Source of the DNA: Clostridium sp.
GTDB lineage: Bacteria > Bacillota > Clostridia > Clostridiales > Clostridiaceae
Direction: 5' to 3'
DNA: 54,164 nt
NCBI RefSeq assembly: GCF_021443865.1
Contig: NZ_JABUTB010000002.1
Location: 67,685 to 121,848 of the forward strand
Below, in pieces: positions 5,887 to 54,164 of the stretch; position 1 is the first letter of the stretch, and each line of letters opens with the position of its first letter. The translations under genes were made by a program, and so were the position numbers. The notes under the pieces were generated by a model. The model was given only the letters and a program-made list of their open reading frames with translations. It made no database searches and was not told where the DNA came from.

Positions 5887-5920
5887 AAAAATAGGAGCTG
5901 TTGCGACAGCTCCTATTTTT
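5887..5920. terminator. Bidirectional Rho-independent terminator
   Basis: aaaaataggagctgt-tgcg-acagctcctattttt, 15-bp stem. Confidence 0.9.
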
Positions 5921-12693: not shown

Positions 12694-12723
12694 AAAAAGG
12701 GGCTGTTGCGACAGCTCCTTTTG
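12694..12723 (+). terminator. Rho-independent terminator of the GGAGCTGT-TGCG-ACAGCTCC type
   Basis: aaaaggggctgt-tgcg-acagctcctttt. Confidence 0.85.
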
Positions 12724-12845
12724 TTTATTTTATATAATTTACCTAGATTTAGTTAATGAAATATGAAATAAGTACACTATAAAAGGATATTTATACATAT
12801 TATAATAATTTTAGTAAAAGCTATAAAATAAGGAGGAAGGCAGAA

Positions 12846-30664: not shown

Positions 30665-30990
30665 CAATACATAATTGACAATACATAATGCATAATTGTG
30701 GAAATAACTCAGACAAGCTGAGTTATAAAATTTAAAATTCCTTAATTATTTCATTCTTTCATGCCAATTTTGCTTCAGCAAAGAGGCTCTTCATTTTTTC
30801 ATTTTGATTTTGCGTCAGCAAAAGAGAAACTTCATTTTTTCATTCCTTCTTCATTCTTTCATTTTTCTAAATTCCGAAGGAATTTACACCTTAATTATGC
30901 ATTGTGCATTATGCATTATTCATTATTCTAAGTTCCGACCTTTGAGGAATTTACACCTTAATTCTACATTCTTAATTTTTCATTTTACAT
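30665..30990 (-). repeat. Intergenic hairpin-array element, copy A
   Basis: Shares atgcataattaaggtgtaaattcc, ctctttgctgaagcaaattggcatgaaagaatgaaat, tttgctgacgcaaaatc and tcagcttgtctga modules with 49911-50200, in the opposite orientation. Confidence 0.75.
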
Positions 30991-31847
30991 TACCGTAGGT
31001 TAACCCTTGTTTTATTTGGTGAAACTCCATAATACTTTTTATAAAGCTTACTAAAATAATAAGGATCATCGTATCCCACCATCTTGGCTATAGTTTTTAT
31101 TGAAAGCTTTGTATTTTCTAATAACTCCTTTGATTTGGCAAGCCTTATTTGTATTAAATAATTAATAGGTGAATCACCCATTATCTCTTTAAATATCTTA
31201 GATATATAAACAGGACTTAAATACATATTTTTTGAAAGTGTATATAAGGATATATCTTTTACATAATTCTCATTTAAATATTTAGTTATTCCTTCAACTA
31301 ACTCTTTTTTCTCACGAGATTTAAAAGAAACTTCATGGGAATCAGAATTAGGAGATTCTTCATTTATCTCCCTATGTAAGAGGATTAATAATTTCATTAC
31401 TAGAGCTTTTAGAATAAAGGGAGAACTATTATTATAATCCTTTTGTTCATCAGATATTTCTAAGCAAGTTTTTAAAATATCATCCTTGTATTTAACTAAG
31501 GTTAAAACATTTTTATCTCCAACATCAATATAGTCCTTTTTAGAGTTACTATATAAGTTTAAATTAGTTACTCCAATATGAAGCTCATTACATCTGGTAT
31601 TAGAATGAAAAAGCTCTCTATGATAAACTCCTGGATTAGATATTAAAACTTGTCCCTTTCTCAAGGTATATTTTTCACCTTCAATTAAATAATCTACTGA
31701 ACCAGAAGTTATAAAGGAAAGTTCAACAAAATCATTATGGCAGTGATAATTAGTTTCTGGAGTAGGGATTTCAGGGGAACAAGATCCATCAATTACAAAA
31801 AGAATTTGAGGATTATAATTGTCTATGCTTGTATATATTTTGCTCAT
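30990..31847 (-). CDS. AraC-family regulator with cupin sensor domain
   Basis: 'NYHCHNDFVELSFITSGSVDYLIEGEKYTLRKGQVLISNPGVYHRE'; HTH 'YLSPVYISKIFKEIMGDSPINYLIQIRLAKSKELL'. Confidence 0.93.
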   Translation of the reverse strand: MSKIYTSIDNYNPQILFVIDGSCSPEIPTPETNYHCHNDFVELSFITSGSVDYLIEGEKYTLRKGQVLISNPGVYHRELFHSNTRCNELHIGVTNLNLYSNSKKDYIDVGDKNVLTLVKYKDDILKTCLEISDEQKDYNNSSPFILKALVMKLLILLHREINEESPNSDSHEVSFKSREKKELVEGITKYLNENYVKDISLYTLSKNMYLSPVYISKIFKEIMGDSPINYLIQIRLAKSKELLENTKLSIKTIAKMVGYDDPYYFSKLYKKYYGVSPNKTRVNLR

Positions 31848-39350: not shown

Positions 39351-39389
39351 TTTATCATGAAAGACGGAGGGACTGGCCCAAGGAAGTCG
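39351..39389 (+). ncRNA. SAM-I (S-box) riboswitch, 5' half
   Basis: tttatcatgaaagacggagggactggcccaaggaagtc matches the S-box P1/P2 signature (TTATCAAGAGAGGTGGAGGGACTGGCCCTATGAAGCC). Confidence 0.75.
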
Positions 39390-39680
39390 AAGTGCTACGC
39401 ACACTACAATGCATAATTAAGTTTTAAATTTTTTCAGAATTTATTTTTATTATAAAATGAAGAAATGAAGAAATGAAAGAATGAAGTAATTAATTTTAAA
39501 TAATTTTTAAAATTATGATACCGAAATTATTGCAATGAGTATGCAAAGTTAGATGTGCCAAATGCATAATGTATAAGTAAGATAAAACTACTGAAAGTAG
39601 TTTTAAGAAGCATTAATTTAAGTATTTCAGAATGAAATACTACCATAATTCTTCATTTTACATTTTACATTCTTCATTTG
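39390..39680 (+). repeat. Hairpin-array-like insertion between the riboswitch halves, copy C
   Basis: Begins near caatgcataattaag, ends ttcattttacattttacattcttcattt; hairpins aaaactac/gtagtttt and agtatttc/gaaatact. Confidence 0.6.
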
Positions 39681-39728
39681 TACGATAGTACTATTTCCTG
39701 CAGTGACTACTGCGTCTGAAAGATTAGA
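39681..39728 (+). ncRNA. SAM-I riboswitch, 3' half
   Basis: gatagtactatttcctgcagtgactactgcgtctgaaagatta matches S-box P4/P1' (GGTGCTAATTCCTGCAG...TCTGAAAGATGA). Confidence 0.65.
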
Positions 39729-47173: not shown

Positions 47174-48145
47174 ATGAGCAATAATAATTTGAAAAGTACT
47201 GAGGGCTATTTTTCTACAAAGAAACTAATATATATTTTAATTACAAATATATATTTTTTAATAGCAATATCACCTTTTTTAATATACTGCCTAGCTTTAG
47301 GAAATGACATATCTATTTACATTGTAGCCATTTTAGCAGTTATAGTAGGACCAGCTATATCAACAGTATTTTCAGTACTAGGTAGAGTTATTAAGGGAAA
47401 AGAAACTAATGCTCCTCAGGATTTTTTATACTTCTATAAATTAAACTTCCTACAAGGAATACTTGCAGGAGCAATAATAAGTGCAATATTATTAGTTGCT
47501 TACTTAGATATGGGATACTTCCTTAAAATGGGAGTAAATAAAATTTTATACTTATTTATTGTAATTAAAGGATTCATATTGGCAGTTAGCCTTTATGTTT
47601 TTCCAATTATAGCTAGAATTAGTGCTAAAACCTTAGATGTTTTTAAACTAGCTATAGAATATACAATAAAAAAGTTTTATTTATCATTAACAATGATAAC
47701 AATAGTGATAGCATTTTTATTTGCAGTAAAACTATTAAAAATATCATTGATTTCATTATTATTTGGACCAGTTGTTATAGCATATATAATATTATTATTA
47801 GAGAAAAACATACTAATAGATGCAGAGGAAATCCTAAAGGATAAATATAAGGAAATACTAAAAAATGAAGAAATTAAGAAATTAGAAAATAGACAATTTA
47901 ATGAAGATGAATATGTACAAGAGATGGTTAATATAGAATTAATAGATAATGAATATTTAGAAAATGAATATTTAGAAAATGAATATTTTGAGGATGAGTA
48001 TTTGGAGAATGAATATTTTGAGGATGAGTATTTGGAAAATGAATATTTTGAGGATGAGTGCTTTGAAGAGGAATTAATTGAAGATGAAGATTTTGCAAAT
48101 AAAGAAATAAAAATAGAAGATGAATATTTAAAAAAAAATAAATAG
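47174..48145 (+). CDS. YesL/DUF624-like membrane protein with acidic/aromatic repeat tail
   Basis: 'GPAISTVFSVLGRVIKGKETNAPQDFLYFYKLNFLQG' resembles YesL; tail (NEYLENEYFEDEYLE)n. Confidence 0.65.
   Translation: MSNNNLKSTEGYFSTKKLIYILITNIYFLIAISPFLIYCLALGNDISIYIVAILAVIVGPAISTVFSVLGRVIKGKETNAPQDFLYFYKLNFLQGILAGAIISAILLVAYLDMGYFLKMGVNKILYLFIVIKGFILAVSLYVFPIIARISAKTLDVFKLAIEYTIKKFYLSLTMITIVIAFLFAVKLLKISLISLLFGPVVIAYIILLLEKNILIDAEEILKDKYKEILKNEEIKKLENRQFNEDEYVQEMVNIELIDNEYLENEYLENEYFEDEYLENEYFEDEYLENEYFEDECFEEELIEDEDFANKEIKIEDEYLKKNK
47948..48060 (+). repeat. In-frame tandem repeat, about 30-bp unit
   Basis: gaatattttgaggatgagtatttgga(g/a)aat repeated, preceded by gaatatttagaaaat units. Confidence 0.9.
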
Positions 48146-49103: not shown

Positions 49104-49907
49104 ATGAATAATAAGGGAATAGTATTTTTTGATGTAGACGGAACCCTAATAGATTGGACAAAAAAGATATACGATCCAACTGAAAGAACAAAGCTAGCTA
49201 TAGAAAAGCTAAGAGAAAATGGCTACTTAACAGTATTAGCAACAGGGAGGCCAATGAATTCAGTTCATAAAGGATTATTAGATTTGGGCTTAAATGGATA
49301 TGTTGCTTCAAATGGTGCTTATTTAGAAATAAATAATAAAGTATTATTTAATGAAACTTTAAACAATGATGAACTTAAAGAATTATTAGATTTCCTAGAA
49401 GAGAACAATGTAGTTTATATGCTTGAAGGACAAGAATACAACTATGTTTTAGATATTGGAAATGAAAAGCTATCAAGCTTTCTAGAAGCAGCTAATTTAG
49501 ATAAAAACAATTTTAGAGAAGATTGGGACAAAGATACTGTTAAAGTTAACAAGATTATAGCTATAGCCTATGACGGAAATTCCTTCAATTTAGTTTTCGA
49601 AAAATTCAAAGAAAAAGATTATGCTTTTATGTCAAACCAAAGCAATGGTGGCGTTTTCGAAATATACAAAGCTAAATATACAAAAGGATATGGAATTGAA
49701 CAGTTATTAAATTTATTAGACATAAGTAAAGATAAAGCCTATGCCTTTGGAGATGGTGAAAATGACATAGAGATGTTCCAAGTAGTAAAATACGGAATAG
49801 CAATGGGAGATTACCATGAAAGATTAAAAAAATATGCCTATGATTTAACAGAAAATGTAGAAAATGAAGGAATAGAAAAAGGACTGAAAAGATTAGGACT
49901 AATATAA
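49104..49907 (+). CDS. HAD-superfamily Cof-type phosphatase
   Basis: 'IVFFDVDGTLIDW', 'YAFGDGENDIEMFQVVKYGIAMGD'; ATG at 49104 follows aaaggagaaa, ORF-track start is upstream of the RBS. Confidence 0.93.
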   Translation: MNNKGIVFFDVDGTLIDWTKKIYDPTERTKLAIEKLRENGYLTVLATGRPMNSVHKGLLDLGLNGYVASNGAYLEINNKVLFNETLNNDELKELLDFLEENNVVYMLEGQEYNYVLDIGNEKLSSFLEAANLDKNNFREDWDKDTVKVNKIIAIAYDGNSFNLVFEKFKEKDYAFMSNQSNGGVFEIYKAKYTKGYGIEQLLNLLDISKDKAYAFGDGENDIEMFQVVKYGIAMGDYHERLKKYAYDLTENVENEGIEKGLKRLGLI

Positions 49908-49910
49908 ATA

Positions 49911-50200
49911 AATGAATAATGCAAAATGGGTAATGCACAAAGATTAATGCATAATGCGTAATGCACAATGCATAATTAAGGTGTAAATTCCTCCAAGGTC
50001 GGAATTTAGAAATAATGAAAAGCCTCTTTGCTGAAGCAAATTGGCATGAAAGAATGAAATAATGAAGATTCTCTTTTGCTGACGCAAAATCGAAATGAAA
50101 AAATACAGGAATAAATTCCTTTGGAATTTATAAAATTTCATAATTCAGCTTGTCTGAATTATTTCAACAATTATCAATTATGCATTACGCATTATTAATT
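49911..50200 (+). repeat. Intergenic hairpin-array element, copy B
   Basis: Ends aataatgc...taatgc / gcattacgcattatt form an inverted repeat; internal hairpins listed in findings. Confidence 0.75.
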
Positions 50201-50230
50201 GCTGCCTTAGGCAGCCGAAAGGGGTTAGAG

Positions 50231-54080: not shown

Positions 54081-54100
54081 TAGTAATTGTATTATAAATT

Positions 54101-54124
54101 ATGGAGCTGTGGCAACAGCTCCTA
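54101..54124 (+). terminator. Rho-independent terminator of the GGAGCTGT...ACAGCTCC type
   Basis: ggagctgt-ggca-acagctcc. Confidence 0.75.
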
Positions 54125-54164
54125 AATTAAAAATGTAGAATTATTCATTTTACATTGTGCGACA

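Follow-up and report, generated by a model that had tools for sequence, protein, structure and literature searches.

MITEs and the pneumococcal BOX and RUP elements are small, intergenic, hairpin-forming, modular and non-coding, and they occur in high copy number; the cyanobacterial STRRs are intergenic tandem arrays with a period of 7 nt. Intergenic heptamer repeats, in cyanobacteria as in other groups, have lacked an explanation. The TAACTGA heptamers of Beggiatoaceae, Cyanobacteria and Bacteroidetes are direct repeats and possibly translational regulatory sites, and the searched part of that text makes no link between them and S23/IVP, IVSs or paired inverted arrays (PMC4679880). Another puzzle concerns 23S rRNA. 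The 23S rRNA IVS of Coxiella encodes S23p, closely preceded by three tandem GACAGAT heptamers, and RNase III excises this IVS, cutting at the start of the first heptamer repeat; the function and origin of the 23S IVS and of the S23/IVP protein are stated to "remain unclear", as they have for decades (PMC4990558). Proteins of PF05635 are similar to Avd, a protein of diversity-generating retroelements (PMC10053308).

We analysed a stretch of 54,164 nt from a Clostridium sp. genome (the window), in which two copies, A and B, of an intergenic hairpin array lie on opposite strands; below, handles beginning with G, C and L denote genomes, contigs and loci. The elements to which these copies belong are small, intergenic, hairpin-forming, modular, mostly non-coding and multicopy, like MITEs, BOX and RUP, and their intergenic tandem unit is exactly 7 nt, as in STRRs and TAACTGA-type repeats. 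Like the TAACTGA repeats (PMC4679880), the arrays often adjoin start codons. The coding form described below has the same protein family as the 23S rRNA IVSs with an S23/IVP ORF (Coxiella, Leptospira; PMC4990558), and the elements share with them inverted terminal repeats that form a stem and a scattered distribution; tandem heptamers likewise stand beside the ORF in Coxiella, the one published case on which membership of the 23S IVSs rests. They differ in lying in gaps of protein operons, none of them inside a 23S rRNA gene, and in that most copies are non-coding with interchangeable hairpins; RNase III processing is published for Coxiella, whereas here we infer it. Avd has a four-helix-bundle fold homologous to the coding-form protein; the reverse transcriptase and the template and variable repeats of diversity-generating retroelements were not noted at the loci read here.

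We consider it probable, though well short of certain, that copies A and B represent, in non-coding form, a family of small IVS-like elements that are apparently mobile and that carry S23/IVP in their coding form. What was computed is that period-7, mutually inverted arrays enclose either swappable hairpins or an S23/IVP gene, that occupancy of the sites varies between related Clostridium, and that the two arms change sequence in concert. The mirrored 7-letter arrays around hairpins and around IVP genes suggest one widespread, hitherto unrecognised element family. No paper joining inverted heptamer arrays to IVP genes was found in the openly licensed literature.

Copies A and B and their parts

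The features of the two copies, and of a third region of the window, are as follows.

30666-30698, reverse strand: copy A, right array (sequence, inverted-repeat match)
30704-30726, reverse strand: copy A, S hairpin, AACTCAG/CTGAGTT variant (sequence, anchored patterns)
30763-30787, reverse strand: copy A, Hb hairpin (sequence, anchored patterns)
30803-30828, reverse strand: copy A, Ha hairpin (sequence, anchored patterns)
30868-30886, reverse strand: copy A, P hairpin TAAATTCC-ttc-GGAATTTA (sequence, anchored patterns)
30893-30929, reverse strand: copy A, inner left heptamer array (sequence, inverted-repeat match)
30929-30953, reverse strand: copy A, outer P9 hairpin TAAATTCC-tcaaaggtc-GGAACTTA, with one mismatch (sequence, anchored patterns)
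30958-30994, reverse strand: copy A, outer left array in a second dialect, AATGTAAAATGAAAAATTAAGAATGTAGAATT (sequence, oriented reading of regions)
39406-39690, forward strand: degenerate relatives of copies A and B, with arrays and hairpins (C92:107040-107420, search with the copy A query)
49911-49942, forward strand: copy B, outer left heptamer array (sequence, period-7 test)
49945-49981, forward strand: copy B, inner left heptamer array, AATGCAT AATGCGT AATGCAC AATGCAT AATTAAGG (sequence, inversion to 50169-50200, period-7 test)
49984-50008, forward strand: copy B, P9 hairpin TAAATTCC-tccaaggtc-GGAATTTA (sequence, anchored hairpin patterns, fold)
50022-50045, forward strand: copy B, Hb hairpin GCC..TTTGC-tgaa-GCAAA..GGC (sequence, anchored patterns, fold)
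50069-50094, forward strand: copy B, Ha hairpin TTC..TTTTGC-tgac-GCAAAA..GAA (sequence, anchored patterns, fold)
50111-50131, forward strand: copy B, P hairpin ATAAATTCC-ttt-GGAATTTAT, AAATTCC-ttt-GGAATTT (sequence, anchored patterns, fold)
50140-50162, forward strand: copy B, S hairpin ATAATTCAG-cttgt-CTGAATTAT, AATTCAG-cttgt-CTGAATT (sequence, anchored patterns, fold)
50169-50201, forward strand: copy B, right array, inverted to the left array (inverted-repeat match, basal stem in folds)

The preliminary description of copies A and B had named the hairpins, their order and the ends, and all of these were found in place in both sequences. Read in element orientation, Ha precedes Hb in copy A and Hb precedes Ha in copy B, as had been reported, and the S stem carries the paired change between AATTCAG/CTGAATT in copy B and AACTCAG/CTGAGTT in copy A. 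The ends had been described as a single inverted octamer of MITE type; they are inverted, but the period-7 test identifies them as tandem heptamers. The decisive feature, namely the period-7 arrays that form the ends, was missed in that description, as was the link to S23/IVP. Blocks that match in opposite orientation cover most of both copies (69 nt at 81%, 67 nt at 82%, 57 nt at 93% and 52 nt at 94%), and each is compound, with a second, outer left array, to which copy A adds a second P9 hairpin.

The outer left array of copy B begins 3 nt past the stop codon (49905-49907) of an upstream HAD-hydrolase gene. Copy B itself is non-coding, and its ends are inverted across 32 nt with 84% complementarity. 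Compared with dinucleotide shuffles, it folds with z of -4.0 and -5.5 on the two strands, none of 200 shuffles being as good, and copy A with z of -2.7; in the folds of copy B on both strands, the two arrays pair as a basal stem around closed hairpins. A known RNA family was considered for these copies and dropped, since none of the 4227 Rfam families reaches its gathering threshold in the window.

Some other features were seen in the window. Directly before the degenerate copies, at about 39356-39405 (C92:107040-107090), a GGAGGGACTGGCCCAAGGAAGTC-like stretch is reminiscent of a decayed SAM riboswitch and falls below the Rfam gathering score. A 15-nt tandem repeat at 47930-48094, within the ORF at 47174-48145, encodes NEYLENEYFEDE-type amino-acid repeats (8 overlapping registers, 72-88%). 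A terminator-like palindrome, GGAGCTGTTGCGACAGCTCC, occurs in three copies that are 72-88% alike (5889-5920, 12694-12725 and 54098-54129), and a hairpin "ggggctgt" near C66:98550 resembles it.

The family in the genome and its paired stem changes

Searched against its own genome, copy B gave at least 112 matches on many contigs, with E values down to 1e-48, and copy A at least 72; merged, these form at least 46 regions on many contigs, the counts being lower bounds, since 40 candidates were scored per search and the assembly is 88.9% complete. Neither copy is thus a chance pattern. The first account had taken the copies for members of a MITE-like, non-coding, modular family, and this is supported: further copies exist beyond A and B, the modules are shuffled, the ends are inverted and the element is present or absent at orthologous gaps. 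In its oriented form, the element has a left array of 2-5 heptamers of AATGCAT type, such as the inner left array of copy B. A P hairpin follows, then Ha, Hb or both, in whichever order, then another P hairpin, the S hairpin and an inverted right array. The P hairpin takes the form TAAATTCC-n9-GGAATTTA or AAAACTCC-n3-GGAGTTTT, the spacers between hairpins are purine-rich (AATGAAAGAATGAA), and short forms without the middle modules also occur (e.g., C98:13340, C101:10740 and C55:49230). A period of 7 was detected in 25 of the 46 element regions and in none of 160 control stretches; other lags stayed at background in the element regions, except for lag 8 in two of them.

The exact S hairpin was found in only four contigs in a scan of named genomes, from Clostridium sartagoforme (two strains), C. 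nigeriense and C. tertium. An origin of the hairpin element from plasmids or phages was dropped, as searches of both gave no DNA match and the S-hairpin pattern was not found in any viral contig.

The elements mostly begin within about 40 nt of the stop codon of a co-directional upstream gene. Among copies for which both neighbours could be called, the upstream gene is co-directional in 26 of 33, and 18 copies between two co-directional genes lie in the element sense vs 5 in the reverse sense. Many copies are found in biosynthetic operons (ilv, leu, arg, pur), where a ribosome-binding site follows them directly. This position between stop codon and ribosome-binding site, the orientation bias, the covariation of the hairpins and the recurrence at the ilvN-cimA, leuC-leuD, argB-argD and purE gaps would all suit a transcribed intercistronic hairpin array with a regulatory or mRNA-processing role, selected in biosynthetic operons and now immobile. 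We regard such an array as unlikely: most Clostridium genomes leave these gaps empty, the contents differ wholly between species (hairpins, an IVP gene or arrays only), and the neighbouring genes are of many kinds. On our preferred reading of an IVS-like family, the element would be transcribed within the host operon and its two arms would pair into a long basal stem cut by RNase III, by analogy with the IVS of Coxiella 23S rRNA. An element that inserts after a stop codon and before the following ribosome-binding site may then be tolerated, since RNase III can cut the arm stem.

Paired changes were scored in P and S hairpins counted with fixed-anchor patterns; a looser stem scan gave many spurious hairpins. 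Across 55 P hairpins, stem position 0 is T-A in 29, A-T in 17 and G-C in 4, position 4 is T-A in 27 and C-G in 26, and position 7 is C-G in 45, T-A in 6 and A-T in 1. The position that differs between copies A and B is T-A in 18 of the 28 S hairpins and C-G in 9, with one mismatch; of the closing pairs, 27 are G-C and 1 is C-G. Base pairs thus switch with few mismatches at three P-stem positions and two S-stem positions, and the paired change between A and B, which recurs in this manner across the family, is one among many.

Selection for structure had been proposed in the preliminary description and is only partly supported. Compensatory changes are indeed frequent, but an excess of G-U wobbles, the sign of an RNA strand, was not found in the scored P stems (2 G-T departures vs 5 A-C), which leaves selection at the RNA level unsupported by this test. 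Because G-T departures are not above A-C, RNA-level selection is not separable from DNA-level correction of palindromes, and the missing wobble asymmetry also speaks against a regulatory array. Mismatches without strand preference and matched changes in palindromes, together with arrays that vary in number and sequence, would be expected if arrays and palindromes grew in situ at AT-rich gaps by slippage and template switching, as replication errors and without mobility. We consider this very unlikely, in view of similar multi-module copies at unlinked loci and of the recurrence of the same P, Ha, Hb and S modules. In a mobile family, the inner hairpins would instead be exchanged through recombination and kept palindromic.

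A different repeated palindromic motif, GCCGAACTTACACCTATTAGCGAAGGTGAATAGGTGTTACCT, was seen upstream of purE in two Clostridium genomes (L140, about 350-480, and C166:7620-7943, reverse strand).

Occupied sites, empty sites and the two arms

About 20 Clostridium genomes have a leuC-leuD gap of 7-15 nt, and G026 has one of 24 nt; the gap measures 64-292 nt and holds array or hairpin sequence in G000, G066, G016, G003, G015 and G007, the gaps of G015 and G007 being measured from a stop inside the insertion. At argC-argJ, an antisense IVP element is present in G000, G007, G063 and G016, and an arrays-only element of 103 nt in G015, and the gap is 31-34 nt in G066 and G019. When G063 and G066 are compared at this site, the flanks are 92-97% identical and the gaps are 597 and 39 nt, about 560 nt apart, sharing the outer 13 nt on each side. 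The ilvD-ilvB gap holds a non-coding copy in the window's genome, and in G062 and G031 an IVP element with different heptamers. The site of copy B is about 40 nt long in G019, is filled with unrelated AT-rich sequence in G003 and G007, and carries arrays of another dialect in G015. Empty sites, which the preliminary description had proposed to look for, therefore exist at leuC-leuD and argC-argJ, and copies are not always syntenic: their sites are partly common and partly empty among Clostridium relatives. Since some sites are common to several species, many copies should be old; no new insertion was seen among the compared Clostridium sites.

The arms were compared at argC-argJ. A left arm scores 35-45 against its own right arm and 10-31 against the right arms of other genomes, and each of the five genomes has a heptamer sequence of its own. 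Own-arm scores exceed all cross-locus ones despite the differing heptamers, so the complementarity of the arms is kept while their sequence turns over.

This behaviour bears on a MITE origin, in which the element would descend from a DNA transposon, lack autonomy and depend for its movement on a transposase recognising its terminal repeats, with S23/IVP as a mere passenger. The elements are small, intergenic and present in many copies, end in inverted repeats and are polymorphic for presence/absence, all of which agrees with such an origin. A transposase, however, normally needs fixed terminal sequences, whereas the ends here, unlike those of MITEs, BOX and RUP, are fast-changing heptamer arrays that differ between copies and species with the arms still matched. 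No target-site duplication was visible by eye in the comparisons of filled and empty sites at leuC-leuD or argC-argJ, an observation that would count against a MITE, and likewise against a mobile IVS-like family, and would agree with growth by slippage. The recurring coding partner is also of another kind, the gene found between arrays across phyla at the loci read being S23/IVP, with no transposase found. We therefore hold a MITE origin to be improbable.

At leuC-leuD of G000 (L213), the left array overlaps the end of leuC, and the leuC frame now stops within the array.

S23/IVP genes between inverted arrays

The sole gene of PF05635 (23S_rRNA_IVP) detected in the genome (C127:3591-3896) sits inside an element copy (C127:3320-4110), which encloses its reading frame in antisense. 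The protein matches PF05635 (E 1e-24) and TIGR02436, "four helix bundle protein" (4e-29), and 2rld is a solved relative. Genes of this type are present in 31 of 69 Clostridium genomes, and inverted repeats, scored as positive at z of at least 4 vs dinucleotide shuffles, flank them in 20 of 24 Clostridium cases vs 0 of 62 other genes of the window's genome.

The association extends beyond the genus. Over 61 IVP loci from Clostridium, other Bacillota and plasmids of Cyanobacteria, Bacteroidota, Spirochaetota and Chloroflexota, inverted arrays flank the gene at 51, vs 2 of 61 at the matched far ends of the same loci, which served as control (Fisher p 2.5e-21); clear arrays are absent at 10. Lag 7 alone stands out (36 near vs 8 far, threshold 0.785), with units such as (AACTAGT)n at L171, (AATTCGT)n at L209, (GAGGTCG)n at L201 and (AAGTCGC)n at L206. 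The GAN motif is missing from the distant IVP members in other phyla. The gene often lies within an operon, as between cas2 and cas1 of Anabaena and drmD and pglX of Planktothrix, both on cyanobacterial plasmids, and between hsdS and hsdR on a Monoglobus plasmid; the protein matches 34 plasmid records and 2 phage records. Growth by slippage leaves this association with one protein family across phyla unexplained.

If copies A and B belong to an IVS-like family, the non-coding copies would be passengers of IVP elements. The S23/IVP protein, a pentameric toroid and Avd homologue, might act on the arrays, as DNA or as RNA, and might help to spread the coding copies and, in trans, the non-coding ones. 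At least one genome, G003, has hairpin copies and no detectable IVP gene; IVP is thus not needed to keep copies, and hairpin copies can persist without the gene.

More tentatively, it is possible, though on balance we would not expect it, that S23/IVP genes and intergenic heptamer repeats across phyla form one unrecognised mobile class, with the arrays as its ends, IVP as its own protein, hairpin copies as passengers and the 23S IVSs as its representatives in rRNA genes. Were this true, the 23S rRNA IVSs would be members of a heptamer-ended class that landed in rRNA genes, and the arms, rewritten together yet complementary, would imply spread by copying of RNA or of palindromes, unlike classical transposition. 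IVP genes between inverted heptamer arrays in several phyla, and hairpin copies with the same ends, link the IVS/IVP puzzle with that of the heptamer repeats, and this link makes both testable.

At one further locus (L142, G080:C30:25476 and 26214), an IVP gene with its arrays occurs twice, the near copies lying about 740 nt from each other; the corresponding locus of the close relative G019 (L143) holds a single IVP copy, and recombination between arrays may account for the difference.
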